A stretch of DNA of 30,401 nucleotides from a virus. The position numbers were made by a program, and so were the translations under genes. The stretch's first letter is position 1. Each line of letters opens with the position of its first letter. The stretch is taken from IMG/VR virus record IMGVR_UViG_3300025137_000173, positions 1 to 30,401 of that record. One strand, 5' to 3'. Shown one piece after another: positions 5,620 to 30,401 of this stretch. Below the pieces are notes generated by a model. It had not been told where the DNA came from. It did not search any database and saw only the letters and a list, made by a program, of their open reading frames with translations.

Positions 5620-5839
5620 TTATTTTCTCTAACAATTGTTTTAGCATTGATTTAATATCACCAACTTCAGATTTAAGATTATCTAACTCTTGTTTTTCTT
5701 TCAACTTATTTTGTCTTATTTTTTTATAATAATTAGAATTATGATTATTTATACTTACTATCATACCAGTATTTTCATTTCGGAAAAGGTTATTGTGTCC
5801 TTTAACAGGTGTTAAATAATCTTCTGGAGCTTCTATCAT
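5612..5839 (-). CDS. Small coiled-coil protein, unknown function
   Basis: A 75-residue protein is encoded between the 555-residue structural gene (ATGA overlap) and the tail-fibre gene (8-base overlap), which is good evidence for translation. Residues 1-35 are polar and include HNNLFRNENTGMIVSINN, a short segment that looks like a small beta hairpin. Residues about 38-73 form a charged heptad pattern (LKEKQELDNLKSEVGDIKSMLKQLL), predicting a short coiled coil. I know of similar small genes at this place in marine T4-like phages, but no function. A fibre-attachment clamp or small assembly helper is possible. An exact late-promoter sequence for the next gene lies within it. Confidence 0.65.
   Translation of the reverse strand: MIEAPEDYLTPVKGHNNLFRNENTGMIVSINNHNSNYYKKIRQNKLKEKQELDNLKSEVGDIKSMLKQLLEKING
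5746..5753 (-). promoter_or_regulatory. TATAAATA late-promoter match before the tail fibre gene
   Basis: This exact minus-strand TATAAATA lies within the 75-residue gene, ending 127 bases before the tail-fibre start. It would give the fibre and sugar-cassette genes their own late transcript. Because it is inside a coding region in AT-rich DNA, it is less certain than the intergenic copies. Confidence 0.45.
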
Positions 5840-7503
5840 ACTGTTGCTATAGTCCTTAAATTAGTAAATATTGGTACTTTAGTAGATCTAGAAGAATTCA
5901 AAGTAATTTTAATTTGATAGGTATTAAAATCTAATATGTCAAAAACATTAAACTCATATTGTCTAAAGGTATCGTGAAAACCTCTATCATTATAATTTGA
6001 AGCGTTAGGAGGATTGTTTGTTAAATTAAATGGAACCCAAGCTTGTTCTTGAATGTTACTTTCACTTCCAGGGGCGAGTGTTCTAAACCAACACTGGAAA
6101 TCAGTCCCCTCAGGCTTGATTGCATCTACTATAACTCTTATAGATGTTGCTGTATCTTCTAGTACATAAGCAATAGTAAGGTGCTTAGATGCAGTAGTTC
6201 CTCCATCTGAATTACTTTCTATAACATAAGGTAAAGTACTCATTGCATTTCTATTATTTGCAGAACCGCTTGAATCTTGATAATCAATAAAATGAGATAT
6301 AATATTTAACGAAGAAGCATTTACATTAAAATAAGGAGCAACATATTTGTTTTGAGTTTCTAATGTGACTCTAACTTTAGTTGAAACTTCTCCATTTAAT
6401 CTTGTTGCAGCTTCTTCTTGTTCTCTAGATGCTGCTAAATGTGGATCTTCAAAATAAGTAACATTATCAAACTCTATTGGAATTTTGGTATCAGTTTGAT
6501 ATGCAGTTTCCGAACCAGCGATAGATGTAGTTGTAGTAAAATCACCTTCTGCATACATTCTGGTCAAAGGAGGTGTGATCCTGGGCAATACCATTTTGAA
6601 TCCATCTATTGTATATTGTTCAGAAGCCAGTAAACTGGTACCTCCAGCTCTTATACTTGAATCCGCAGATTGCGCGAGAGTCATCGAGTAACCAAAAGCA
6701 TCCACAGCTGTGATAGTATGTGTCTTCAAAAGGTTAGCTCCAGATACACCATTTACTGTATCAGCACTATCTAAAGCTGTTGAATTTGATCTAAGTTTTA
6801 CTTTATCTCCAACTATAAATCCATGAGCAGGATGAATAACACTCATTGTAGTTGATCCTCCAGTAAACACTAATGGGTCAGCTGGATACTTAATAATATT
6901 ATCTGTGATAGTGTTTTCTGTCAGCGATTTCAGAGGTGGTGTATCTACTTCCATGTAAGCTACATTAAACTGGAAATTAAAACTTGCTCTATAAACTTTG
7001 AAAGCTAAGTCACTAGTTTGATCACCAGTCCATACTGTGCCGTTTGAAGATCTAAACAACACTCCACTATTAAGATCTTTAGTAACTAGTTTAGTTGTTG
7101 AACCAGCCACATGCTGTCCTTGAGTTCCTGACCAAACTTTGTAATGTCCTACTTTACCTGATGTAGCAAGTACAATAGCCATTTCTACATTTGCAGGGAC
7201 ATAAACAGGTTCTTTAAATGTAAATTTGTATTCAGTAGAAGAACTAAAAGTTTCAGATGCTATTGCTCTTATAGCAGCTGCGGTTGCAACAACTCTGGTT
7301 CCAGGAATAAATCTAGTAGCAGAGGGTGTTCCATTTACTGTTGGTCTTAACTCTAAAGTTATTGGAAGTTGTTCTTCACCTGTTGCAGGACCTCTTTGAA
7401 AAAAGACACCCACACTTGTAAGAACAGATCCACCTGGTTCAGTAACTCTGAACGTTTGTGCGAGTGGATTGAATTGATCTGTAAGTTGTAGTAATGCAGT
7501 CAT
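5836..7503 (-). CDS. Outer baseplate structural protein (marine T4-like family)
   Basis: The 555-residue protein starts with DQFNPLAQTFRVTEPGG and continues with SVGVFFQRGP and ITLELRPTVNGTPS, then EMAIVLATSGKVGHYKVW and GVLFRSSNGTVWTGDQTSDL (residues about 10-165). This strand-rich jelly-roll-like N-terminal domain is one I associate with baseplate or fibre-network proteins of T4-like marine phages that occur next to, or fused to, DUF4815 proteins. The C-terminal half (DFQCWFRTLAPGSE and the following 80 residues) looks like another compact beta domain. It follows the 443-residue gene after one base and overlaps the next gene by ATGA, so it is part of one operon. Probable role: peripheral baseplate component that carries or anchors fibres. 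Confidence 0.65.
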   Translation of the reverse strand: MTALLQLTDQFNPLAQTFRVTEPGGSVLTSVGVFFQRGPATGEEQLPITLELRPTVNGTPSATRFIPGTRVVATAAAIRAIASETFSSSTEYKFTFKEPVYVPANVEMAIVLATSGKVGHYKVWSGTQGQHVAGSTTKLVTKDLNSGVLFRSSNGTVWTGDQTSDLAFKVYRASFNFQFNVAYMEVDTPPLKSLTENTITDNIIKYPADPLVFTGGSTTMSVIHPAHGFIVGDKVKLRSNSTALDSADTVNGVSGANLLKTHTITAVDAFGYSMTLAQSADSSIRAGGTSLLASEQYTIDGFKMVLPRITPPLTRMYAEGDFTTTTSIAGSETAYQTDTKIPIEFDNVTYFEDPHLAASREQEEAATRLNGEVSTKVRVTLETQNKYVAPYFNVNASSLNIISHFIDYQDSSGSANNRNAMSTLPYVIESNSDGGTTASKHLTIAYVLEDTATSIRVIVDAIKPEGTDFQCWFRTLAPGSESNIQEQAWVPFNLTNNPPNASNYNDRGFHDTFRQYEFNVFDILDFNTYQIKITLNSSRSTKVPIFTNLRTIATV

Positions 7504-7504
7504 G

Positions 7505-8836
7505 TTACACCTTAACTCTCTTATCTTTAATCATCTTTCCAATTGCTCTACAAGATGGTACACCAATTGTAATTATAAATCTACCAAGTAAATTATCTTT
7601 GTGGTTGTCTGGTTCCATTCTATGTGCAATGTGTTTTGCCCAAGAAGAAACTAAAGGAAGTGCTAATGTGTAGAATCCAATTCTGGCTAACATAGTATCT
7701 CTCTCAATCCATTCTACAACAGGTTGAGCCCAAGCATAATAACCATCATAAACATCTGGATCTGTGTCTCTGGTCATTTGACCATAAGCAGTATCTAAAC
7801 GCCATATCTCTTCGCTAAGATATCCTCTCCTGTGCAACAAGCTACAAAGAACTGTCTGATTACCAGTAGTTTTTCTTGGTTTTGGTTTGTTTTTGGATCC
7901 ATCTTTATTAGTAAAACTCATGTTATCGTTATTTATTCTGATGTTTGCAGCCTCTTCATTCATATAATAAGTGGTTTTATTTCCGTTTTTGTCGGTTTCT
8001 ACTACGTGTTTCATTTTAGTACCACCGCCACCTTTACTGGAGCTCTTAGTAGTAGTAGTTTCAGAAGAACCACTTTCTATTACAGCTGGAGTCACAGGTG
8101 GTTCTTCCTCAGGAGGTGGAACTGGAACAAAAGGAGTATCAGGAGCCACAGGGTCAGGTACAACAGTCGGAACATGAGGAGGCACAGGTGGATCGTCGAC
8201 CCAAGTCTGTACATTATATTGATATTCTTCTTCATAAGAAGTAGTGTATTGATAAGTTTCTGAATAAGCTTGTTGATATGCATGCTGATATTGATAGTAT
8301 AGTTCATATTCACCAACAGCTGCATATTCAGCTTGAGCCCAAGACAAACATTCTTCTTTGTCTAAAATACTTATATCACTTACAACTAAGGATCGATTCC
8401 CAGTTGGAAAACTTGTTGCTGCGTTACTTTGAATGTAAAATAAACCATCTAGATTACCAGACGCGTCTGAATAGACAGGCTGACCTACAGCTGCAGTAGG
8501 ACCACCAAGTTCAGCAGGAAAACCTGTTTCATGAATGTATTTGTCACCTGGATTCCTTATAGAATTATTTCTATTTAAAGTATTATATGTTGCCGAATTG
8601 AATGAAGTATTGCAAAAGTGTGTTATTCTTTTACCATCAAAAAATATCCAATGAGGAGAGTTAGGCCTCAATCCACTAAAGGAAAAATATGAAAAATTTG
8701 GTCTTATGATTGGAATAAGATCAAACCCTAAATTAGCTTCCATAGTTGAATAAGCTGTTTTATATGCAGTCCTGGTACCAGTATTCTGCTTATCAAGAGT
8801 TCTAGTGCCTGTTCTGCTTTCTGTTATATAACCCAT
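7505..8836 (-). CDS. Baseplate/fibre structural protein with Tyr-rich and Pro-rich linker
   Basis: The 443-residue protein has three visible parts. The N-terminal domain (1-165) contains SGLRPNSPHWIFFDGKRITH (55-73), a segment I associate with structural proteins near the baseplate of marine T4-like phages. Residues about 171-207 are unusually rich in Tyr, Gln and Glu, then 214-252 are Pro/Val/Glu-rich, followed by a Gly/Ser/Lys stretch; together they would form an extended linker. The C-terminal domain (328-443) is compact and helical, with CSLLHRRGYLSEEIW and DGYYAWAQPVVEWI. It has a good ribosome binding site (AAGGA) and lies between the DUF4815 gene and the 555-residue structural gene. 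No T4 name can be given. Confidence 0.6.
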   Translation of the reverse strand: MGYITESRTGTRTLDKQNTGTRTAYKTAYSTMEANLGFDLIPIIRPNFSYFSFSGLRPNSPHWIFFDGKRITHFCNTSFNSATYNTLNRNNSIRNPGDKYIHETGFPAELGGPTAAVGQPVYSDASGNLDGLFYIQSNAATSFPTGNRSLVVSDISILDKEECLSWAQAEYAAVGEYELYYQYQHAYQQAYSETYQYTTSYEEEYQYNVQTWVDDPPVPPHVPTVVPDPVAPDTPFVPVPPPEEEPPVTPAVIESGSSETTTTKSSSKGGGGTKMKHVVETDKNGNKTTYYMNEEAANIRINNDNMSFTNKDGSKNKPKPRKTTGNQTVLCSLLHRRGYLSEEIWRLDTAYGQMTRDTDPDVYDGYYAWAQPVVEWIERDTMLARIGFYTLALPLVSSWAKHIAHRMEPDNHKDNLLGRFIITIGVPSCRAIGKMIKDKRVKV

Positions 8837-8845
8837 ATTTCTTCC

Positions 8846-11794
8846 TTAATTATTCCTATCACCTTGTGAGGATGGCATCAGTGTGCCACTAGCAACAAAA
8901 GAATTAGTTTGTTGTGCTACATAAGTTTGATCTTGCAATTTGCGGACTGTCCAAGTATCAATATTAGGATCAAGAAATCCAGCACCAATTGATTTTGTAA
9001 TCTCAAATGAATTAACATTAGTAGCTTCAGAGGCTAAGTCTTGATTTACCATAACTTCTTCAATATATTTAGGCCATATTGTATTACCTACTATAACAGT
9101 ACCCCACGAAGCATCAGAATCATACTTCATAGGTAAGTTTCTTGCAAAAGCTATTGGAGCTATAGATCCTGTGCTCTTGTTTATAAGAACTCTATTATCA
9201 TTATCATAAACATCTGTTTGCCTGTTATCTCTAAATCCATCTGCAGTTAATCCTAACTTTACTCTGTCAGGCATTGAGGAATCTAACGGATCAGGAATAG
9301 TGGTTTGCAATGTAGCTATTTCAGCCATATTGAGGACAGAATTTACTTCTAGGTCACTTATCCTATTTTCTAGTTCATCAATATCTTTCATTTGATAACC
9401 TAGATTACCAAACTTAGAAATTGTTAGATCGTGCTTATCCAATGTGAATGGATTAAGAACTATTCCATGCAAAGGATAATTCTGTAATGGAACATTGTTT
9501 GGATATTGAGCTGTCGAACCTGAATTACTACTATGTATTTCTAATTCACCTTTTGGACTCATAGAAATAACATCAACTCTTGGGTTCCAGTATGTTGCTG
9601 ATCCAAGAGTAATTGTTCCACCATTCTTTGGAATGTTTTCTACATAGGCTCCAGTCCCAGTAAAGGTATCTGTATTTGCAGTATCTTTAACAGGTCTCAT
9701 ATCAATTACATCGGTAAGTCTAAATTCTTCTCCTGTTTTTAAAGTATGCACGGGAACATTTTGATAATCAACGTCTGGATATGAAGGTTTACCTGCAAAG
9801 AAGTCTCCACTTGAATGAGAGAAGAAATCATATGTAACAGTCAACGCGCCTGTTGGTTCTCCAACACCATTTTTAATTCTACCAGAACCTACTGTATAAA
9901 AATTATCTCTATGTCCATTATCAAAGATAAACTTATATGTTATATCCTCATTGGTAACATTATCTACTACACTAGTAAACCTATAAATGTCAACATTGGA
10001 TAGATAGAATTTACCTGCCACAAATGTTACATTATTTTCTACTGTAGCTACATTTAATGTTTTAGTTTTTCTAGTGGCAGATGTATTTTCATATGCCAAT
10101 AAATTAATATCTTTGCTTGCTGGTAATCCTGTCACAGTTACAGATGTGTTAATGGTACCAGAAGTAGTTGGAGGATTAATTACTGCTGAGCTGTAAGCAC
10201 TGTCTGCTGCTACAATCCAATCTTCTTGATTTGCAAATGTATTTGATGATCCGGTACTAAAAGTAGCTTGACCAGATCCATTTGCTGTAGCTGTATAAAC
10301 TTTTCTAACAGCCATTGTAACATTGGATATAGTATTTGCTCTTTCTCTTGCAAGAGGAAACATAAATGTATTTTGGAAAGGATCTTGTAAATCAAACTGG
10401 CCTTTTTTATCTCTTATTAATTCTGCAACACCAGTAGTAGAAGTACCCAGAGAACGTGTCTGACCTATACGAAATTGTGTACCAGTACCATCACTATCCA
10501 TTTCAACATCGAAAACATGGATTCTATATTTGTTATCAAACTCATCAATATTACGTATTCTAGCTTCACCAATTATACCGCCAGTGCGAGTGTCGCCAGC
10601 AAAGAGTTCTACTTCGGCAAAATTAGTAATGTTACCAATTAAGCCATGAATACTATCAGCTAAGAAATAATTTCCATAGTTAGCTGAAACGAACTCAGGT
10701 TCGTTTTCATAAATGTTTTGAGGGTCTGATCTAGGTTTCTTTACTCTGAGTGTAGTAGATTTAGTTCTTTCATTTCTATTACCACCGACAAAAGCCACAC
10801 CGCCTGCTATTCTATATTTCAGAAAATCATTATCACTATCATCTTCTACGTGAAGATCAAATACTCCATATTGACTACTACGCTCAATAAAATCACCAGA
10901 AATACTACTAGTTCTACTATTAAGTATAACACCCATTTCATTAAGAACGTTGTCTCTGTTTTTTATAGCCCTTGCTCTACCTTGGACAATGTCATAAACA
11001 GGATAAAAAGTCTCACCTGATTGTATATCTTCTTTTTTAATTAAAGTCATTAAGATCTGATATCTATCTGCACCAGGAGATGTAAGATTTGGAGTCGACC
11101 CACTATTATCAAATAATGCTATCTCATCACCTGAAGTAATAATTTTTTCTTCAAGCTTAAATCCTACTACAGCTGTTGGAGCTTTAGTATATTTTGAAAT
11201 GACCAAAGATTGAGCTTCCACCATAACAATGTGACCAGCTACAAAAGTTGAAAAGGAAGGAACTTCAATTAAGGATCCTCTGCCTGTTGCAGGATTAATA
11301 GAAGTGTTAGTTGTTTGTACAGTCAAGGATCCAGTTGAATATGTTAGTACATCGTTGGGAACAAACTTAACTGCTTTAGTTGTATCAGATTGAGCTACAT
11401 TGTTAGAATCAATGTACCTTACAAATAAGGTATCCGGATCACCATCAGCGGCAGGTATTACTACTTTGATTGTAGCTGAAAGACCAGCAGCGTTGGTAAT
11501 AGTCTGACCTAATAAAGAATTAGAATTGGTTGGTAATGAATTTACTTTTACAAAATCAACAGCATTAGTTCCTGATTGCAAAGAACCATAAGAAGTGTTA
11601 AACACACTTCCTTCTTTAAATATGAACGCTCCAACTCTTGACAGCTCAGTTTGAATAATAGTCTGTAGCTGAGTTAACTCACGTGCCTGAAGAGCACGAC
11701 CGTTATTAAACAATACTCTATGATAGTGATCACTATCTTTAAAGTCATCGTTATACTGACTAAGAAAAGTTGATTGTGTTACATTAGTCGCCAT
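8846..11794 (-). CDS. DUF4815-type baseplate/tail structural protein
   Basis: The largest complete protein here (982 residues) opens with SQYNDDFKDSDHYHRVLF and then GRALQARELTQLQTIIQTEL (residues 12-51), the signature of the DUF4815 family of phage baseplate-associated proteins. The middle is strand-rich with many Gly, Thr, Asn and Ser residues. KDIDELENRISDLEVNS (about residue 810) looks like a coiled-coil trimerisation segment, after which the chain continues through PDPLDSSMPDRVKLGL to a C-terminal part ending in SFVASGTLMPSSQGDRNN. It lies between gp8 and two other structural genes. In marine T4-like phages this protein is thought to belong to the outer baseplate ring that replaces the T4 gp10-gp12 pin and short-fibre system; that role is inference here. 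Confidence 0.8.
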   Translation of the reverse strand: MATNVTQSTFLSQYNDDFKDSDHYHRVLFNNGRALQARELTQLQTIIQTELSRVGAFIFKEGSVFNTSYGSLQSGTNAVDFVKVNSLPTNSNSLLGQTITNAAGLSATIKVVIPAADGDPDTLFVRYIDSNNVAQSDTTKAVKFVPNDVLTYSTGSLTVQTTNTSINPATGRGSLIEVPSFSTFVAGHIVMVEAQSLVISKYTKAPTAVVGFKLEEKIITSGDEIALFDNSGSTPNLTSPGADRYQILMTLIKKEDIQSGETFYPVYDIVQGRARAIKNRDNVLNEMGVILNSRTSSISGDFIERSSQYGVFDLHVEDDSDNDFLKYRIAGGVAFVGGNRNERTKSTTLRVKKPRSDPQNIYENEPEFVSANYGNYFLADSIHGLIGNITNFAEVELFAGDTRTGGIIGEARIRNIDEFDNKYRIHVFDVEMDSDGTGTQFRIGQTRSLGTSTTGVAELIRDKKGQFDLQDPFQNTFMFPLARERANTISNVTMAVRKVYTATANGSGQATFSTGSSNTFANQEDWIVAADSAYSSAVINPPTTSGTINTSVTVTGLPASKDINLLAYENTSATRKTKTLNVATVENNVTFVAGKFYLSNVDIYRFTSVVDNVTNEDITYKFIFDNGHRDNFYTVGSGRIKNGVGEPTGALTVTYDFFSHSSGDFFAGKPSYPDVDYQNVPVHTLKTGEEFRLTDVIDMRPVKDTANTDTFTGTGAYVENIPKNGGTITLGSATYWNPRVDVISMSPKGELEIHSSNSGSTAQYPNNVPLQNYPLHGIVLNPFTLDKHDLTISKFGNLGYQMKDIDELENRISDLEVNSVLNMAEIATLQTTIPDPLDSSMPDRVKLGLTADGFRDNRQTDVYDNDNRVLINKSTGSIAPIAFARNLPMKYDSDASWGTVIVGNTIWPKYIEEVMVNQDLASEATNVNSFEITKSIGAGFLDPNIDTWTVRKLQDQTYVAQQTNSFVASGTLMPSSQGDRNN

Positions 11795-17764: not shown

Positions 17765-20299
17765 TTACTTGCCAGTATCTGACCAATGAAAGGGATCTAC
17801 TGTTTGAAAATAAGTGGTATCCAGTTGGAACCATCCACCATTTTCTGGTTTATGGCCATTAGCCTTTACCCAATTCCACAAAGGACTTTTGTAAGTACAA
17901 TCTGCTATCTTAATTGCTTCTCCAAGACCAGTTCTAGAAACAGTAGCAGCTGGTACTGATGAGTTACCACCATCACTATATTCTCTTGACTGATAGTAAA
18001 ATGACTTGTATCCAGCGTTCAGCTTGAGGTCAAAACCATCTACAGCCGCGGCCTTTTTAAGCTTGTTAAATCTAATTGCACCTGTCTTAGATAATAGTAC
18101 TGGTCCTTGGCCTTCTCCATTTACTGGAAGATCCTGCACTTTAACTAATTGAGAAGGATCTATTTTACCTCTAGTTCCATCATATCCAATTTGAGGAGGG
18201 TTGACATTTTGGTTAGACAAAAATCTGTGAGTTGTTTTTTTCCATTGTAAATTACTTTGAGATAGATTAGTAGCAGGATCAACCCCTGCCTCAAGAACTT
18301 CAACCAATTCATTTTCAGCAATTGTATTACTGTTGTAATGAGTTTCAATCTTTCTATTAAAGTTAGCTGACCACACAGAAGAAGAATCTTCACCATCTGT
18401 GGATGATACTTTTAGTTCAGGAAGTATAACTATTATTCTTGCTTCTAATCCTTTGAGTGAATCTATGGTATCATAATCTAAAATTAATTTATCAAAGTTT
18501 TGAGTCTTACCCCAGAGAGAAGCTAGGTCAAAAGTTTTGGCTAAAGAAGTATTCCCAGTTTGATCAATCAATCTATACACCACTGCTTTACCTGTTTTCT
18601 TTAGATCATTTAGTCCTCCTGGAGTTATTGTTTCATTTGGTCCAGGTCTATACAATCCTTCAGAAACTGTCAATCTGTAATTTTTAAATTCATTCTTATC
18701 ATTTTTTACTAGTTGAATTAATTGACTGTGTAGATAATAGTATCGAGCAAGATCAGATCTATCCTCTACATCTCTTACCCATTCAATATTAGTAGGATCT
18801 TCAGTACCTAAAAATTTAGCCATACTGATCCCAGGAGCAAATTTTAACTTTGAATTTATAAATTGTTTATCGACTGTATCTGGATTAAACTTATTATCAG
18901 GTATTATGTTTACAGCTTTTGTGGGAGGTAGTTTGCTGTTGTAAGCAAGTACAGTAGGATTCAAAGTAGTTATTAATCTTGGGTCCCCTTGGTTCACGAC
19001 TCGGTTTACTTGTTCAGGTATCTTCTCAAAGTAAGAAGGATCCAGTACATTAGTTTCTAATATATTAGTAATAAAATCTAAATTGTTTTGATTTGATACA
19101 TCTCTTAACTTTGATCTTATTTGATCAGAGGACATTACTTTATCAGATATACCACCATTCAAAAGATTTTTCAACAAATGTTTTCTAATAATTTCATCTT
19201 GATCTATCTTGACTCTTCTTATACCACCTGTTGATTTACCTAACCATTCAGTCATCATACTTTCAGTAGGCTTAGCTGTTTCAACAGTATCAGTAGCTGT
19301 ATTATCAGCTGTAAATCCAGCTGCGCTACCTGTGTTACCAGCGCTTCCATCATGAGTATCCGGATCAGAATAAGCTTGAGAATTAGTAATATCTGATCTA
19401 ATAGCTGTAACCGCTGTTCCTTGTAGATCTCCATGAAAAGCTGGAGCAGTAACCCCTGCTGAATAAGTAGCTGACTGAGCATAAGCATTTTGATAATACA
19501 TAGTTACTGTTTGCCCACCAATTGTTCCAGTGTTACTTTGCACAGTCATATCTTGAGCAGAAAGCGTCATATTGTTAGAAGCTAAGTTCATATCAGTCTC
19601 AGCAGTCATGTAAGTATAACCACTTGCAAAGAAGTTTGCATCGCCGTTTACATTATTACTAAATGTACCTTTGATATTAGCTGAGTATCCACCAAGATAA
19701 GTATTTGTTGTTTGTCCAGTCGCCGTGGTTGAATATCCACCAGCTACTTGCTCACCAAAATTTCCAGCTACAATCTTTCTGTGTGATCCACCAATGTTCT
19801 CAGTCTTGTTACCACTAGCATTAACATTAAAGTTTACACAATCGATATCCAAATCACCAGCCACATTTAACTTTAGATTACCTTTGAAAGTAAGTGCTCC
19901 ATCAGCATCTACATGCAAAGAATATTCTTTGCCAACATAATCTTCTCTAGCAGATGGAGAGGAAAATGTTAATGATCCATCAGCGTGGTATTCAATTCCA
20001 CCACCTTCTGAATGTATTACAACTAATTTATTTTCAGCATCATTGAAGTGGATCTCATGACCACCAATAGTATTGATAACTCTATTCTTTCTATACTGTG
20101 ATTCCGCGCTCGATTGATTAGCAAATTGTTGAGGAGAGAGAGCTACATCTCCACCACCAGTCCACACATTAGGTGAACTACTATTAATAATATCTTTGTT
20201 TAAACTAGATACACCAACATATTCAGCTAACGGAAATTCTTTGCTACCTTTACTGGGTACATCTCCACCAACTTTTGGAACATCATCTTCTATTGACAT
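17765..20299 (-). CDS. Central spike-like protein with gp5-C-type repeats and degenerate M15 peptidase-like C-terminus
   Basis: The 844-residue protein has a low-complexity start (1-75), then INTIGGHEIHFNDAENKLVV and EYHADGSLTFSS, typical of the VgrG/gp5 C-terminal spike, followed by short beta repeats rich in Asn, Gly, Thr and Asp (about 105-290) that fit a trimeric beta-helix needle. A helical middle (350-550) is unassigned. The C-terminal part (about 730-844) resembles M15 D,D-carboxypeptidases: LNAGYKSFYYQSREY, SRTGLGEAIKI, SPLWNWVKANGHK and DPFHW. The M15 motif HxxxxxxD would fall on Thr790 and Lys797; only His838 of the three zinc ligands remains, so it is probably inactive. It has a good AAGGA ribosome binding site and lies one base after the amidase-like gene. 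Confidence 0.7.
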   Translation of the reverse strand: MSIEDDVPKVGGDVPSKGSKEFPLAEYVGVSSLNKDIINSSSPNVWTGGGDVALSPQQFANQSSAESQYRKNRVINTIGGHEIHFNDAENKLVVIHSEGGGIEYHADGSLTFSSPSAREDYVGKEYSLHVDADGALTFKGNLKLNVAGDLDIDCVNFNVNASGNKTENIGGSHRKIVAGNFGEQVAGGYSTTATGQTTNTYLGGYSANIKGTFSNNVNGDANFFASGYTYMTAETDMNLASNNMTLSAQDMTVQSNTGTIGGQTVTMYYQNAYAQSATYSAGVTAPAFHGDLQGTAVTAIRSDITNSQAYSDPDTHDGSAGNTGSAAGFTADNTATDTVETAKPTESMMTEWLGKSTGGIRRVKIDQDEIIRKHLLKNLLNGGISDKVMSSDQIRSKLRDVSNQNNLDFITNILETNVLDPSYFEKIPEQVNRVVNQGDPRLITTLNPTVLAYNSKLPPTKAVNIIPDNKFNPDTVDKQFINSKLKFAPGISMAKFLGTEDPTNIEWVRDVEDRSDLARYYYLHSQLIQLVKNDKNEFKNYRLTVSEGLYRPGPNETITPGGLNDLKKTGKAVVYRLIDQTGNTSLAKTFDLASLWGKTQNFDKLILDYDTIDSLKGLEARIIVILPELKVSSTDGEDSSSVWSANFNRKIETHYNSNTIAENELVEVLEAGVDPATNLSQSNLQWKKTTHRFLSNQNVNPPQIGYDGTRGKIDPSQLVKVQDLPVNGEGQGPVLLSKTGAIRFNKLKKAAAVDGFDLKLNAGYKSFYYQSREYSDGGNSSVPAATVSRTGLGEAIKIADCTYKSPLWNWVKANGHKPENGGWFQLDTTYFQTVDPFHWSDTGK

Positions 20300-20300
20300 A

Positions 20301-21665
20301 TCATATCCTTGCGTTAACTATTTCATCTGCAGTATAAGGCCCTTGTGTTAAATCCTTGTTAATTAGGCCTCTACTAAATCTTGTCTTATTAAATTGTACT
20401 ATGTCTATATGGGGACCTTTTTTAGGTGATTGTAAAAGATCACTTCCAAATATTTGTATTCCGGGTATACTCTCATAAGCTATTTTAAACATACCTGCTA
20501 TATTATTTAATTGATTAGAAGAATAAGTGTTTCCCATAATAAAGTTTTCTGTTTCTTTAGGATGCGGTCCTTTGATTCCTCCAACTAACATTACGACAAT
20601 ACTATTTTGATTGTGATTGTAAGGTAATATAGTAGACTGTTCAGCTTCAAAATCTACAGGAAGTAATCTTTCTATTCCACTTGCAGTTATTACATAATGA
20701 ACAGGAGGAACTTTATTATTACTTGCTTTCTCAATATCAAATATTCTTTTAGAATTTACAAATAAATCTTTTCCTGTGTTAGAAGAAAAAACTACAATTT
20801 CAGTTACTTGTCTAGTTAAAGTGAGAAATTCTGATTTGAGCTCATCGGGTGATACATTTACATTATTCCAATAGTTACTAGTAGCTTCTCCATTAGACCA
20901 CAATGCTTTTATTGATTCTGTATCATTGGAAAATGGAATAATACTGACAGCATTTCTGTCCACAGTATTAGAAAAGGTATCAGAAAGTAATGATTTATAG
21001 CTGCTAGATGATTTAGCAGATAAAGAATTAATATTTGTTCCCGAAGAAGTTTTAAGAGCAGTCCTATCAGGTAATTTTTCTAGTGCAGCAGTAACATCTG
21101 ATTGAGGATTTGTATCTGCTTTATAATGTTTGGATACAGAAACTTGTTCTGCCAGTCTTGGAAGTTCTACTTTATTAACATCTGTTGTCACATTAGTTAC
21201 TGCTAATAATTCATCTTCGGTAGCAGTAGGAACAGCTGCTTTGGTGGCAGCTGATATGGCCTCAGGAGTAACAGCTGTAGTGACGACATCAAGTTGTCCT
21301 GGCGCAGTTAAGGTTGAATTGTTTGAGGACTTTTGTAAATCACTTGAAATAGAACTACTAATATCTTGTATCAATTTATCACTCTGACCAGTAACATCAG
21401 AATTCATTTTTGCTATTGCTATAAATTTATCATTAACTATATTTTTTGGAAATGAGTTAGGTATGGAGCTAATTGTATCGTCTACATTAGATGCGATAAG
21501 TTCAAAACCTCCTACCTTTTCTCCTAAGGTACTTCCTAACTTACTTGAATTTGCAACTGCATTTACAGTCTGCAACTCAGCAGTTTCTTTTATTGCTTGG
21601 GTCACAGTTTGATTCTTATTAGAAGTGTTATTAAAACTCTTTGATAAATTAGCTCTTTCAGACAT
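20301..21665 (-). CDS. Baseplate hub-associated protein with degenerate amidase-like domain
   Basis: The 454-residue protein has a long Ser/Thr/Asn/Ala-rich N-terminal part (1-240) without clear domains. Residues about 283-425 have the pattern of an N-acetylmuramoyl-L-alanine amidase (amidase_2/PGRP fold): VTEIVVFSSNTG, then HYVITASGIERLLPVD, NSIVVMLVGGIKG and SSNQLNNIAGMFKIAYESIP before IQIFGSDLLQSPKKGPHID. The zinc ligands expected from T7 lysozyme-like enzymes (His after the first strand, His near GSD, Cys or Asp before PG) appear as Phe/Ser, Ser408 and Gly417, so hydrolysis is unlikely. It overlaps the gp5-like gene by one base and lies one base before the spike gene, which suggests a structural or peptidoglycan-binding job at the hub. 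The fold is inferred from pattern only. Confidence 0.55.
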   Translation of the reverse strand: MSERANLSKSFNNTSNKNQTVTQAIKETAELQTVNAVANSSKLGSTLGEKVGGFELIASNVDDTISSIPNSFPKNIVNDKFIAIAKMNSDVTGQSDKLIQDISSSISSDLQKSSNNSTLTAPGQLDVVTTAVTPEAISAATKAAVPTATEDELLAVTNVTTDVNKVELPRLAEQVSVSKHYKADTNPQSDVTAALEKLPDRTALKTSSGTNINSLSAKSSSSYKSLLSDTFSNTVDRNAVSIIPFSNDTESIKALWSNGEATSNYWNNVNVSPDELKSEFLTLTRQVTEIVVFSSNTGKDLFVNSKRIFDIEKASNNKVPPVHYVITASGIERLLPVDFEAEQSTILPYNHNQNSIVVMLVGGIKGPHPKETENFIMGNTYSSNQLNNIAGMFKIAYESIPGIQIFGSDLLQSPKKGPHIDIVQFNKTRFSRGLINKDLTQGPYTADEIVNARI

Positions 21666-22756
21666 TAAAAAGGTCCAGTCGCTGTTGCAACACTAGGTGT
21701 TGATTGTTTAGGTGTCGCTTTTTTTATAGCATTTTGAAAATCTATCATAGCTTCATTAGCAAACTTTTCTCTTTTTTGTAATTCCACTACCTTATTAGCA
21801 GGGTTTTCATATATGTCTAACCATATCCATGTAGCATTATTATCATTAGGACCACCGACATACTCTGAAGTCTTCAACATTTTTTTGTAAACATTACTTT
21901 GTGCTGACGCTCCGTCTGCAGATGTTCCCACACCATATAAAGTATGACATATGAATTCAGCTTGAAGAAAAAAGTCATCCCAAGGCAGTTTTCTTTTCTT
22001 TGAATACTCTAGTAAGTGTTGAAATCTTCCCACATTAGCATTCCATTGAGCAAGACCAAACGAAGGTTCATTACTACTATTGGCATCAGGAACTACTTGC
22101 TGAAGTCCTTCTGGAAATGAGGCTGCAAAAGTAGATGTTCTTTTTGTACTGGGGACTCCTGATTGAGCCGAAGGATCAAATAGAGAATTTTCTCCTTGTA
22201 AGTTTCCAACTATCCCAGCACACATTTCAGGAGTAAATCTAGGCTTAGGTCCATCAGGAGTTTCAAACGTTTGATTTGCAAAAAATAACATAAGAGCCAA
22301 GCGCTTTACTAAAATATCATCAGGATTGTTCTCCACCATCGTTCTTATTTCTCTATCAGTTACTATACCTTGATAAAAAGAAAATGGATCTGTAGTGTTA
22401 GTCAAACCTTGAGATACCAAGGCTTGATCTCTCAATGACCCAGGATGTACTATTCCATGATGAACTAGCGATCCTAATACAAGAGGCATTTGGGATTCTT
22501 TACCATCTAAAAAGATACCAAATACTCTTGCAGATTCTAATAGTCCTGGTCCTTGTCCTATACCAGATACTCCACCTTCTGTAACTGGAAGTAATACTTG
22601 AGCCCAAGGATAATCTCCAGAAGGGATATCAGATTCATCATCAGAATGTATTCCATGTATCTTTATTTGTACTCTTCCTTCTTGCCTAGGATCATCATAG
22701 ACATTAAGAACAGTTCCAATAAACCATCTTACATTATCTCCATAAAAATAATTCAT
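21665..22756 (-). CDS. 5: Baseplate hub protein gp5-like: OB fold plus phage tail lysozyme
   Basis: The 363-residue protein has an N-terminal OB-fold domain as in gp5/VgrG/gpV hubs (WFIGTVLNVYDDPRQEGRV, IKIHGIHSDD, YPWAQVLLPVT, then FLDGKESQMPLVLGSLVH; about 10-100). A second domain (about 145-315) contains CAGIVGNLQGENSLFDP, with Glu189 as the likely catalytic acid, and SFGLAQWNANVGRFQHLLEY (232-251), the pattern of the phage tail lysozyme family (Phage_lysozyme2) rather than the T4 gp5 lysozyme. The spike needle found at the C-terminus of T4 gp5 is absent; the separate 844-residue gene two places downstream may supply it. Start overlaps the upstream hub gene as ATGA. It would digest peptidoglycan as the tail tube crosses the envelope. 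Confidence 0.8.
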   Translation of the reverse strand: MNYFYGDNVRWFIGTVLNVYDDPRQEGRVQIKIHGIHSDDESDIPSGDYPWAQVLLPVTEGGVSGIGQGPGLLESARVFGIFLDGKESQMPLVLGSLVHHGIVHPGSLRDQALVSQGLTNTTDPFSFYQGIVTDREIRTMVENNPDDILVKRLALMLFFANQTFETPDGPKPRFTPEMCAGIVGNLQGENSLFDPSAQSGVPSTKRTSTFAASFPEGLQQVVPDANSSNEPSFGLAQWNANVGRFQHLLEYSKKRKLPWDDFFLQAEFICHTLYGVGTSADGASAQSNVYKKMLKTSEYVGGPNDNNATWIWLDIYENPANKVVELQKREKFANEAMIDFQNAIKKATPKQSTPSVATATGPF

Positions 22757-26651: not shown

Positions 26652-27236
26652 ATGAGTAATTTATTTCAAACATTAGAGCTGGAAGCTTTCCGAAAAGGAA
26701 TTAACCCCCGCACAAAAGAATCACGCGCTTGGTTTAGAAGAAAAGCAAGCTCACTAGGTCGTGTGAACAGAAACCAATTGATGAAAGAAGAACCTCTGGC
26801 ATTAAAAACCAAGTTTCAACCTGGTGCAATGGCTATGTTTTTTTATGATCCCAAAACTAAAGACAAGCTACCTTACTATGATTCTTTTCCTTTAGTAATT
26901 GTAGTAGATAGTGCTGATGGAGGATTCTATGGTCTCAATTTGCACTATCTTCCACCTGCGTTAAGAGCTAAATTCTTAGATGGTTTAATGGATAAATTAT
27001 CAGATAAAAAATTTGATGAGAAAACTAAGTTTGCAGTATCTTATCAATACTTGAAAAGTGCCTCCACAATGAAGTACTTTAAACCATGTTTTAAACATTA
27101 TCTAACTTCAAATGTTAGGAGTAGATTTGCAGTAGTTCCAGCACCTGAATGGGAGATAGCTACTTTTCTTCCAACAGCAGATTTTCAAAAAGGTTCTAGA
27201 AGTAGAGTATATAAAGATTCACGAGGAATGATCTAA
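26652..27236 (+). CDS. Conserved T4-like phage protein, possible gp2 DNA end protector
   Basis: The 194-residue protein has a basic N-terminal helical part (KGINPRTKESRAWFRRKASS, 15-34) and then a very conserved-looking core: GAMAMFFYDPKTKDKLPYYD (57-76), then FPLVIVVDSADGGFYGLNLH and YLPPALRAKFLDGLMDKL. The C-terminal part has FKHYLTSNVRSRFAVVPAPE. I associate this core with a protein lying beside gp4 in marine T4-like phages, and by neighbourhood it may be gp2, which in T4 caps the DNA ends in the head against RecBCD. I am not sure of the name. It has no clear Shine-Dalgarno sequence, overlaps the gp54-like gene by one base (TAATG) and is preceded by a TATAAATA at only 5 bases. Confidence 0.55.
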   Translation: MSNLFQTLELEAFRKGINPRTKESRAWFRRKASSLGRVNRNQLMKEEPLALKTKFQPGAMAMFFYDPKTKDKLPYYDSFPLVIVVDSADGGFYGLNLHYLPPALRAKFLDGLMDKLSDKKFDEKTKFAVSYQYLKSASTMKYFKPCFKHYLTSNVRSRFAVVPAPEWEIATFLPTADFQKGSRSRVYKDSRGMI

Positions 27237-27988
27237 TGTCGGTTGATGAATTTAAAAGTTTAGTTACAAACAAAAGAGGCCTGGCCAGGTCCAATCTCTA
27301 TAGAGTTAAGCTACCAGCATTGCCTGGAGCCTCTTCACGCGAGATAAATTTACTTTGTAAAAATGTGGAGCTTCCTGGTAGACAAATACTTACTAATCAG
27401 AGAATCATTGGAATTAAAAGAGAAAATGTTCCTTATGGATATGCAGTAAATGATGTTAACATGACGTTTACTTTATTAAATGATTATGGAATAAAAAACT
27501 ATTTTGAAACATGGCAAAGTAGAGCTGTTAATCAAAGCTCTTATGAAGTAGGCTATAGAGATGGTCCAGGTGGATATGGTTTTAATATTCAAATAGAACA
27601 GCTTGAAAAAGGATTAGGCAACGTACCTTTCTTCTCTACTAATATTGGTTTTGTTAACTTCGCTCTAAACTTTTTTATTGGAGCGCCAGCTGTATACACG
27701 TGTACATTAATCGATGCATTCCCAACTACAATGAATAGTATTTCGTTAAGTAATGATTTAGATGGACTGTCAGAACTTACTGTAACTTTATCATATGTGG
27801 ATTGGAGATCAGGAATTATGTCTGGATCCAATACAAACCTATCGACAGCTAGCGGGTTGTTAAATACAGGTTTACAACTATTAACTAGATCCCTTAATCT
27901 TCCGTTAGGAGATTTTGGATTAACTGCAAATACAAAGCCCAAAAACTTACCAGCAGGTTTACCAAATTTATTGAATTTATTTACATAA
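27236..27988 (+). CDS. 54: Baseplate tail tube initiator, gp54-like
   Basis: The 250-residue protein has the layout of the gp19/gp54 tail-tube fold: KRGLARSNLYRVKLPALPGA (13-32), VNDVNMTFTLLNDYGIKNYF (about 71-90) and ETWQSRAV, and near the C-terminus a strand pair VYTCTLIDAFPTTMNSISLS followed by ELTVTLSYVDWRSG (about 181-194), comparable to the end of T4 gp54. T4 gp54 has 320 residues. gp54 sits on the hub with gp48 and starts tube polymerisation. A main tail-tube protein gp19 is a possible alternative, but T4 gp19 is shorter (163) and the position beside gp26 and the tape-measure-like gene favours gp54. A Gly/Leu/Pro-rich C-terminal tail follows the fold. Confidence 0.6.
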   Translation: MSVDEFKSLVTNKRGLARSNLYRVKLPALPGASSREINLLCKNVELPGRQILTNQRIIGIKRENVPYGYAVNDVNMTFTLLNDYGIKNYFETWQSRAVNQSSYEVGYRDGPGGYGFNIQIEQLEKGLGNVPFFSTNIGFVNFALNFFIGAPAVYTCTLIDAFPTTMNSISLSNDLDGLSELTVTLSYVDWRSGIMSGSNTNLSTASGLLNTGLQLLTRSLNLPLGDFGLTANTKPKNLPAGLPNLLNLFT

Positions 27989-28006: not shown

Positions 28007-28717
28007 ATGGCACTACCCAAGATTAATGAGCTTCCGAGCTATGAATTAGTCATACCCTCCTCACAACAAAAAATAGAATACAGGCCTTTCTTAGTTAAAG
28101 AGCAAAAAATACTTATGATGGCTCTTGAGACACAAGATGAGAAAGCTATATTAAAATCAATTGTAGATACAATAGAGTCTTGTGTGACAACTGAATTAGA
28201 TGTTCAAGCACTTACAACATTTGACATTGAATATCTCTTTACACAAATTAGAGCAAAGAGTGTAGGAGAACAAGCAAAAGTAAATTTGAAATGTGGAGAA
28301 TGTGAAAAGGATACAGAAGTAGAAATACCTTTGGACGAAGTAAAAATAAATTTAACTAATATTGATAAAAAAATAAAACTTAATGATCAATATACAGTTT
28401 TAATGAAATATCCTAACTTCAAAGCAATATTGTTAGCTCCGGAAGATAAGAAAGGAGACTCTCTTACTGAAGCTATACTTGACTTAGTTATAATGTGTAT
28501 GGATAAACTTCAAACCGAAGAAGAACAAATTGAATTTCAAAATGAAACCAAACAATCTATAAATGATTTTTTAGAAAGTTTAAATACAAAACAATTTGAA
28601 AAGTTGGTACATTTTGCTAACAATCTCCCCAAACTAACACACAAAGTGAACTACACATGCGAACATTGTAAAAAGGAAAATCAAATAACGTTGAGTGGTA
28701 TCCAGGATTTTTTTTAG
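28007..28717 (+). CDS. 26: Baseplate hub assembly protein gp26 (zero-frame product)
   Basis: The 236-residue protein has the T4 base plate (gp26) family signature at its start: INELPSYELVIPSSQQKIEY then RPFLVKEQKILMMALE (6-41). It carries two Cys pairs, CGEC (96-99) and CEHC (218-221), that could form a four-Cys zinc site. T4 gp26 has 208 residues and is needed for hub assembly but is not a main virion component. Start is supported by AAGGA 8 bases upstream; another ATG four bases before is out of frame. The stop codon falls at the end of a run of eight T directly before a -1 frame extension, so a longer product is likely as well. Confidence 0.85.
   Translation: MALPKINELPSYELVIPSSQQKIEYRPFLVKEQKILMMALETQDEKAILKSIVDTIESCVTTELDVQALTTFDIEYLFTQIRAKSVGEQAKVNLKCGECEKDTEVEIPLDEVKINLTNIDKKIKLNDQYTVLMKYPNFKAILLAPEDKKGDSLTEAILDLVIMCMDKLQTEEEQIEFQNETKQSINDFLESLNTKQFEKLVHFANNLPKLTHKVNYTCEHCKKENQITLSGIQDFF
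28708..28714 (+). promoter_or_regulatory. Slippery heptamer for -1 frameshifting (T TTT TTT)
   Basis: In the gp26 frame the sequence reads GAT TTT TTT TAG, giving the X XXY YYZ heptamer T TTT TTT immediately before the stop codon. Slipping back one base makes the ribosome read TTT TTT TTA GTA AAC and on into an open frame. The run holds eight T, so transcriptional slippage is an alternative cause. Confidence 0.75.
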
Positions 28718-28905
28718 TAAACCTCTCCCATGACACGTTAGTTAATTATTATCAAGTCAATTATCAGCTAGTTCAGAACTATAAATACTCATTAACAGAT
28801 ATTGAAATGATGATACCATGGGAGAGGGAGATCTATCTCTCAATGTTGATAGATCAAATAAAACAAGAACGAGACCAAGCTCAAAGACAACAACTACAAC
28901 GGTAA
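28714..28905 (+). CDS. -1 frame extension of gp26 (63 codons; about 299-residue fusion)
   Basis: The -1 frame is open from 28669 to the TAA at 28903-28905, with no ATG, GTG or TTG codon before 28807, so its first 46 codons cannot be reached by ordinary initiation. After the FF of gp26 the fusion would continue LVNLSHDTLVNYYQVNYQLV, then YKYSLTDIEMMIPWEREIYL, and end in a charged helix rich in Gln. This is amphipathic, coding-like sequence with normal amino acid use, not random frame-shifted sequence. It sits between gp26 and the tape-measure-like gene, which suggests a long chaperone form like gpGT of lambda. The sequence facts are direct; the function is inference. An independent 32-residue product from ATG 28807 is the weaker alternative. 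Confidence 0.7.
   Translation, partial: LVNLSHDTLVNYYQVNYQLVQNYKYSLTDIEMMIPWEREIYLSMLIDQIKQERDQAQRQQLQR
28722..28827 (+). promoter_or_regulatory. Downstream stem of the gp26 frameshift site
   Basis: CCTCTCCCATG at 28722-28732 is the exact reverse complement of CATGGGAGAGG at 28817-28827, giving an 11-bp perfect stem with 7 G-C pairs in AT-rich DNA. The 84-base loop can hold a smaller hairpin (TAGTT CAG AACTA). The stem starts 7 bases after the slippery heptamer, within the 5-9 base spacing usual for -1 frameshift stimulators. Confidence 0.65.
28780..28787 (+). promoter_or_regulatory. TATAAATA late-promoter match before the tape-measure-like gene
   Basis: An exact TATAAATA lies within the gp26 -1 extension, ending 122 bases before the next start codon. 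It could give a separate late transcript of the tape-measure-like gene. It also encodes Tyr-Lys-Tyr in the extension frame, so a chance match is possible. Confidence 0.45.
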
Positions 28906-28909
28906 CAAT

Positions 28910-30401
28910 ATGGCATCTTTAACAGAAGTAGTAGAAGAACTCAGAGGACAGAATGACACCTTAGAAGATGTTAAGTCATCTCTTAAAAGTATACTAGATG
29001 TTGATATAGCTGGACAAAGAGAAGCTGCATCCCAAGAACTTCAAGATAAAGAAAACGCTATTGAAGCAAGAAGGTCTAAAGCTGCTAACATGTCAGGTGC
29101 ACCCAAATCTATGGGTGCAGGTGTATCAAAAGCTTTTGGAATAGATAGCCTTCTTGGTGGCCTTCAAGGCTTAGGTGCTGGGTTTTTAGCTGGAGCTAGT
29201 ACGTTAGGAGGGGGGGCTTCTCTTGGTGGTTTGCTGGGTCTAGCTCTTGGTAAAACATTTATAGGAGCGGCTGGAGCTTACTTTGGTAGTCAAATGTTTT
29301 CTGATGAAATGGTTAACAAATTAATTCCAGATGTTCTTGAAGACATTAATATAACGAAGGATATAAAAGTAGGAGATATAGCCGCCGAGTTAGGAGGTGC
29401 TTTTCTTTTATTATTTGGTCCAAAACTTATAAAAGGAATATTTAAAACAGGCTTCGGATATATTAGTAGTTTAATGATAGCCAAGATTGCAGTTTCATCA
29501 GGACAAGATTTACTTGGGGAAGACGGTAAAAAAAATATAGATGATGAAACTAAAAAAGGTAAAAAAAGATTTGGTAGACGCCTTTCTGGAGGAATTGGAA
29601 TTGCAAGTCTATTAGCTTTTGTTGGTGCTGGTATTGGAGAGGAAGTGGGTAAGTTAACAGGAAGTGAAGAACTTGGCGATGCTATATCTGCAGCAGCAGT
29701 TGGTGCAGGTCTTGGATCCATGTTTGGACCTAAAGGTGCAATTATTGGTGCAGCAATTGGACTTGCATATGCAGCTGGAGTAATGTTGTATGGATGGATG
29801 CAGAATACAAGAGAAGAAGCTACAGTTAAATTAAAAGAAGATCTTGACCGACAAAACAAAGAATTTAAAGATGCATTAGAATCAGGTGACTTAGAGGCAG
29901 CTTCACAAGTATTAAACAATGATAGAATACGAGTCGATACAGTTACAAATGAAGGTCTAAGAGATGCATATACTCAAAATGCAGCTCAACGTAATGAGCT
30001 AGCTGATGCATTGACAGCTACTGGCCAAATTGAAGAAGCTAATAAGAGAAGATATGAAGCCGCTATGATGGGTTTTGTAAACACCACTGATCCTGCTGAA
30101 AAAATTAGCATATTAAAAGATTTTCAGAAACTAACTGGATTAGACAAAACAACAGCTATTGAAAGACTTAATCCTAATTACAAATCAATGTATCAGAATC
30201 CTGACACTACTATGGCAGATATGTTTAGAGCTTTACCAGACAAATTTGTAGACTCAAATGCTCGTCCAGACAATTTTGATAATACTTCTATGCCAGCATC
30301 GCGATTGATACCAAGTGATCCTTACAGTAAACTTCGAGAAAAAGTAACGTCGCCATATATGGTACCGTTTGGACCGGTTGGTGGGTTGGGAGGATCAGGA
30401 T
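28910..30401 (+). CDS. Putative tail tape-measure/hub protein (partial, 3' end outside window)
   Basis: An open frame runs from ATG 28910 to the window end: 497 codons without a stop. Residues 1-60 form a charged, coiled-coil-like start (VVEELRGQNDTLEDVKSSL). Residues about 81-128 and 153-195, and again 227-245 and 257-297, are Gly/Ala/Leu/Ile-rich hydrophobic stretches, several long enough to cross a membrane (LGGLLGLALGKTFIGAAGAY; SAAAVGAGLGSMFGPKGAII). After 300 the chain is charged and helical. Such a mix is typical of tape-measure proteins, which line the tail tube and enter the host inner membrane. It follows the gp26 frameshift site by 4 bases, as tape-measure genes follow their chaperones. 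It may be the counterpart of T4 gp29, but I see no signature to prove it. Confidence 0.65.
   Translation, partial: MASLTEVVEELRGQNDTLEDVKSSLKSILDVDIAGQREAASQELQDKENAIEARRSKAANMSGAPKSMGAGVSKAFGIDSLLGGLQGLGAGFLAGASTLGGGASLGGLLGLALGKTFIGAAGAYFGSQMFSDEMVNKLIPDVLEDINITKDIKVGDIAAELGGAFLLLFGPKLIKGIFKTGFGYISSLMIAKIAVSSGQDLLGEDGKKNIDDETKKGKKRFGRRLSGGIGIASLLAFVGAGIGEEVGKLTGSEELGDAISAAAVGAGLGSMFGPKGAIIGAAIGLAYAAGVMLYGWMQNTREEATVKLKEDLDRQNKEFKDALESGDLEAASQVLNNDRIRVDTVTNEGLRDAYTQNAAQRNELADALTATGQIEEANKRRYEAAMMGFVNTTDPAEKISILKDFQKLTGLDKTTAIERLNPNYKSMYQNPDTTMADMFRALPDKFVDSNARPDNFDNTSMPASRLIPSDPYSKLREKVTSPYMVPFGPVGGLGGSG

Follow-up and report, generated by a model that had tools for sequence, protein, structure and literature searches.

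How are gp26 and gp51, two long-standing puzzles of T4 hub assembly, made from a locus where the gp51 reading frame follows gp26 with no start codon in its first part? Both proteins are given as T4 hub assembly chaperones, and reports on whether gp26 is present in the particle are contradictory (PMC3004832). It was noted in 2010 that cyanophage gp51 has only ~20% of the T4 length (PMC3037559), and in many database records of marine T4-like phages the locus is split into two genes or gp51 is annotated in truncated form. The locus examined here lies in a stretch of 30,401 nucleotides, the whole of which we call the window (IMG/VR virus record IMGVR_UViG_3300025137_000173; positions refer to this stretch), and an initial annotation had proposed a -1 programmed frameshift at the end of its gp26 gene.

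The probable slip site and the gp51-type extension

The gp26 homologue (28007-28717, plus strand) encodes a zero-frame product of 236 aa that matches PF12322 (E = 1.6e-57) and phrog_150, baseplate hub (E = 1.9e-59), and as a gp26-family member it corresponds to the short form, TAC-N. The gene ends with the codons GAT (28706-28708) TTT TTT TAG; hence, within a run of 8 T (28708-28715), the heptamer T TTT TTT (28708-28714, plus strand) stands in X XXY YYZ phase, with TTT in both the P and the A site. The zero-frame stop TAG (28715-28717, plus strand) abuts its 3' end. In-phase T TTT TTN sites number six in the ~9,955 codons of the window; at the other five the -1 frame closes after only 2-18 codons, compared with 63 at the gp26 site, which lies 0 codons from the stop. 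From the slip site onwards, the -1 frame runs through 63 codons and a stop (28714-28905, plus strand; stop codon at 28903-28905), encoding LVNLSHDTLVNYYQVNYQLVQNYKYSLTDIEMMIPWEREIYLSMLIDQIKQERDQAQRQQLQR. Its first start-type codon is the ATG at 28807, halfway through the gp51 domain, and the open -1 stretch of 12 codons that precedes the slip contains none. When re-derived, the heptamer, its phase, the adjoining stop and the open frame with no start in its first part all agreed with the initial annotation.

The extension matches phrog_634, baseplate hub assembly catalyst (E = 9.4e-23, profile positions 59-117 of 121), as well as the C-terminal end of phrog_150 (positions 235-279, E = 3.1e-8), and judged by these profiles it is a gp51 family (TAC-C) domain and not an anonymous tail. 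In T4, gp26 on the minus strand and gp51 on the plus strand are separate genes whose products are both PF12322 proteins. T4 gp51 has a PF12322 match over 1-201 and a phrog_150 match over profile positions 13-280, and its phrog_634 domain is placed after the gp26-like part, the long form being one uninterrupted gene. A virtual fusion of the two frames in the window aligns with T4 gp51 from the gp26 region through the extension (BLASTP, E = 1e-9), and it has the phrog_634 domain, in the order seen in T4 gp51, that marks the long form. On the strength of the phrog_634 match, the shared domain order and this alignment, a single locus with a frameshift appears to make in the window what T4 makes from two genes.

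To place the site among its relatives, junctions from two IMG/VR scans and four isolates were combined into a set of 165 including that of the window (146 unique). An in-phase T TTT TTN at the gp26 end is present in all 165, with A (67), C (71), T (26) or G (1) as its last base, and so are a zero-frame stop 0-2 codons past the heptamer and, in the -1 frame, the same gp51 peptide family, which extends over ~60 codons on contigs that reach far enough. In the junctions compared, T is without exception the last base of the codon preceding the slip, and TTT is the only first slip codon seen; elsewhere in gp26, TTC accounts for 21% of the Phe codons, and C-ending Asp and Asn codons are common. The heptamer is also found in 10 of 11 distant T4-like isolates, among them Emdodecavirus, Cr30, Menderavirus, nt-1, Ceceduovirus, Pootjesviridae, Nanhuvirus, a Methylophilales phage and S-PM2, the exception being Vibrio phage K476. 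The nearest relative, L006, comes from another metagenome and has a junction identical to that of the window. Its gp26 shares 87% aa identity with the window protein and differs from it by 30 nonsynonymous and 49 synonymous codon changes, while the extension, with 0 and 3, respectively, is conserved and changes synonymously. The initial annotation had named a conserved T-run phase and purifying selection in the -1 frame as signs of a functional site, both of which are thus seen, and a T number that simply fuses the frames as a sign against it, which occurs in no relative compared.

The heptamer, its phase and the conserved, start-less extension with its gp51 identity are read from the sequence. 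As heptamer and gp51 frame persist throughout the junction set and in nearly all distant isolates, we infer that ribosomes slip here: the site is very likely a -1 programmed ribosomal frameshift yielding gp26 as a short and gp26-gp51 as a long product, a mechanism with which the comparisons of T-run phase, extension and stem (see below) agree.

The window and L006 also differ in how similarity is distributed along the locus. In the comparison of 28714-29070, an identity of 98% in the extension contrasts with a far greater divergence of gp26, and similarity ends ~250-350 nt past the gp26 stop, which suggests a mosaic boundary in the downstream gene.

RNA stems downstream of the probable slip site

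A spacer of 7 nt (28715-28721, plus strand) separates the heptamer from a stem in which the 5' arm CCTCTCCCATG (28722-28732, plus strand) and the 3' arm CATGGGAGAGG (28817-28827, plus strand) form 11 of 11 pairs, 7 of them G-C, and close an 84-base loop. The inverted-repeat search thus recovered spacer, stem and loop as initially described, and the stem is the sole inverted repeat of at least 9 bp in 28600-29000. A perfect 11-bp stem with a spacer of 4-9 bases arises within 200 nt in ~0.02% of first-order Markov sequences, and 7 nt is inside the typical 5-9 nt spacing for -1 frameshift stimulators. Folding of the RNA at this site gives z-scores of -3.5 to -4.0 relative to dinucleotide shuffles, and of -2.5 when the shuffled copies keep codons and protein. 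No transcription terminator was found at the locus, and Rfam returned no match above the gathering score for 28600-29000.

Conservation of the stem was analysed in a gapless alignment of 113 extensions of <92% identity, including an LSH group of 56 relatives in which extension codons 4-6 read LSH, as they do in the window. In this group, 85.9% of the stem cells are paired, and 64% of the sequences form at least 10 of the 11 pairs, compared with 0 of the M group. Cells with double changes number 35, against 16.7 +/- 3.5 after shuffling and at most 12 in slid registers. On a tree of the gp26 proteins, and hence of sequence outside the stem, pair 28722-28827 has undergone 9 inferred, independent and pair-preserving double changes, from C-G to T-A or back, and its mutual information of 0.88 is the highest among all wobble pairs tested; compensatory changes, which the initial annotation had expected of a functional stem, are therefore found. 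The mean folding z-score against codon-preserving shuffles is -2.4 in the LSH group and -1.9 and -1.7 in the other two groups (113 relatives), and control stretches inside gp26 give -0.2 to -0.7 in the same test.

Could the frameshift be real and the stem a by-product of conserved LSHD and PWER codons? Both arms do encode conserved residues, and pairing reaches up to 71% in a slid register. RNAalifold predicted no consensus structure for the long-stem relatives, for which reason covariation was counted directly. However, synonymous resampling of the arm codons leaves at least 10 of 11 pairs in only 3% of cases, against the 64% observed in the LSH group, a comparison in which kinship is ignored, and the coupling at pair 28722-28827 is at wobble positions. 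We regard the by-product explanation as unlikely and retain the stem as a candidate stimulator.

Other relatives have different structures. In P-SSM2-type cyanophages the long stem is absent and a local hairpin of 10-11 bp is present whose 5' arm overlaps the same region, for example AGTATGGCTCA with TGAGTCATACT in P-SSM2. RNAalifold gives 9 pairs for it, and at columns 21/35 UA, AU, GC and GU are all seen, with 9 double-change cells. The hairpin set, A3, comprises 25 of 41 M-type sequences picked for at least 7 of 11 pairs; its paired percentage is consequently biased, and covariation is the informative part. Across all 41 M-type sequences, unselected, the highest number of co-changing branches in the row, 5, falls on the partner wobble pair. 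A third group (L012, L015, L034 and others) has an 8-bp mini-hairpin, GGACTATC...GATAGTCT. With slightly more confidence than doubt, we hypothesize that gp26/gp51 frameshifting is driven by conserved, clade-specific RNA stimulators, either the stem with the 84-nt loop or the local 10-11-bp hairpin, in which the 5' region would have been reused and the 3' partner switched.

From the conservation and covariation of the stem, which are likewise sequence readings, we infer stimulation and an influence on slippage efficiency. Most ribosomes would end at TAG 28715-28717 and release the 236-aa gp26 (TAC-N). A minority, which the stem 28722-28732/28817-28827 would hold on T TTT TTT, would slip back one base and translate 63 more codons, giving a 299-aa gp26-gp51 fusion (TAC-NC). 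E. coli ribosomes slipped less on U UUU UUA and U UUU UUU than on A AAA AAG, according to work cited in PMC5009743. The covarying stems offer a testable handle on how the ratio of short to long form is set.

Other routes to the gp51 frame

Most cyanophage records annotate gp51 as a separate short gene, which would be translated by termination-reinitiation. This has some basis in P-SSM2-type cyanophages, where an ATG in the gp51 frame lies 2 nt past the gp26 stop, and in phages whose gp26 stop overlaps a start codon, as TGATG in phiM7, Cr30, Mendera and RHph_Y68 and as TAATG in nt-1 and K476. In the window, however, the first -1 start-type codon lies mid-domain, and 90 of the 146 unique junctions have either no ATG in the extension or none before its codon 18. 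Moreover, the annotated gp51 genes of C48C1 and HTVC008M begin at internal starts and are truncated, and reinitiation leaves the invariant T TTT TTN unexplained. Reinitiation is therefore very unlikely as the general explanation; a separate gp51 gene is rejected for the window, where the early -1 frame has no start, and is left open for the K476 group, which may use reinitiation.

In K476 itself (L170, 2217-2230), the gp26 homologue is without the heptamer and a gp51-like ORF starts from the TAATG overlap, which suggests that reinitiation replaced frameshifting in this group. Five other phages, phiM7, Cr30, Mendera, nt-1 and RHph_Y68 (L167, L168, L169, L171 and L177), combine the heptamer with a TGATG or TAATG overlap at the gp26 end, and with both elements present a free gp51 could be made besides the fusion. 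In three public records (L001, 3723-3896; L002, 3783-3887; L003, 3753-3890), gp51 is given as a short gene that is separate or has an internal start, in each case likely a misannotated frameshift extension. Frameshifting would also account for the short cyanophage gp51, as the C-terminal part of a fusion.

The frame might instead be changed by RNA polymerase slipping on the T run, which comprises 8 T in a row in the window. This we consider extremely unlikely: in most relatives the run is just T6 and then A or C, which is short for polymerase slippage; in addition, the codon phase of the heptamer is exactly kept, and an RNA stem that covaries and lies at a typical distance speaks for the ribosome. 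An assembly error, or a disabling indel in a truly fused gene, might be suspected at a homopolymer in a metagenome-derived record, but its probability is negligible, as independent contigs and isolates with differing third heptamer bases keep the frames apart and L006 has the same junction in another metagenome.

The tail assembly chaperone reading and known systems

By sequence comparison and by analogy with lambda G/GT (PMC5009743) and the T4-like chaperone genes of Vladimirov et al. 2022, the predicted gp26 and gp26-gp51 pair is a tail assembly chaperone arrangement (TAC-N/TAC-NC). If the analogy with lambda gpG/gpGT holds, short and long form alike would cover the tape measure protein while the tail is being assembled, and the gp51 domain would serve to bring in subunits of the tail tube or hub. 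An AlphaFold2 model of the window gp26 (pLDDT 90.9) has gp26-type proteins among its matches to viral models. No solved homologue was found by sequence, and the highest-probability match of the model in the PDB is the HK97 tail assembly chaperone 2OB9 (prob 0.90, TM 0.52 on target), at an E of 0.57 that is not significant. The upstream neighbour (27236-27988, plus strand) belongs to the tail tube family (phrog_45, E = 1.9e-29). The next ORF (28910-30401, plus strand), Gly/Ala-rich and with 497 aa before it runs off the window, is a candidate tape measure protein by position only; it has no family match except weak, chance-like ones, and the C48C1 ORF at the corresponding position resembles it only very weakly. 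In HTVC008M and Cr30, ORFs resembling tape measure genes come right after gp51.

Two other structural families are distributed over several genes on the minus strand of the window. The 2056-aa profile of phrog_358 is spread over three adjacent ORFs at 5839-11794 (8849-11794, profile 583-1123; 7508-8836, 1164-1383; 5839-7503, 1765-2054), and a large structural protein appears to be split into three genes. Similarly, phrog_430, the gp5-like hub/tail lysozyme family, is split at 17768-22756 (21668-22756, profile 15-106; 17768-20299, 327-579), with an amidase-like ORF (20304-21665) between the parts.

According to PMC10274946 and PMC12846349, which cite the study, Vladimirov, Gautam and Davidson (Virology 2022; 566:9-15; doi 10.1016/j.virol.2021.11.003) identified the T4-like chaperone genes and reported frameshifting in them; in the citing passages, PRFect (PMC10274946) refers to it for T4-like phages with separate short and long genes and PMC12846349 for poly-T slippery sites in T4-like TAC-N genes. 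Going by these citing papers, the frameshift in the window belongs to a known kind, and the initial suggestion that one at T4-family gp26 may be new has to be withdrawn. The abstract of the 2022 study reportedly describes frameshifting as conserved in several T4-like groups, with T4 using genes 26 and 51. No RNA structures at T4-like chaperone genes were found in the literature searched, where the 2022 study is represented through its citing papers, and the new part may mainly be the covarying, clade-specific RNA stems.

Several known systems resemble the window in part. HIV-1 gag-pol combines a U UUU UUA heptamer with a downstream stem-loop, as outlined in a passage of PMC4373837, and T TTT TTA is one of the heptamers seen most often in the relatives compared (67 of 165); however, virus and ribosome are unrelated, and the window stem closes an 84-nt loop. 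The TAC of phage Adele (Vandenendeviridae/Andersonviridae) has a -1 frameshift at a GTTTTT motif at the TAC-N end, comparable with the gene-end site of the window, but in other phage families, and the passages of PMC12846349 on this gene make no mention of a downstream stem. In lambda G/GT, too, a chaperone gene ends in a -1 frameshift, which yields a minor form with a C-terminal extension (PMC5009743), whereas heptamer and protein family differ; a passage of the same 2016 review gives T4 as the exception. The T4-like chaperones themselves resemble the window in having the same families (PF12322/phrog_150 for the short form, phrog_634 for the C-terminal domain) and the same short/long logic. 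The lambda frameshift and its relatives are said to have been described by Xu, Hendrix and Duda in 2004. T4, in contrast to the window with its one locus and a frameshift, has the two forms in two divergent genes.
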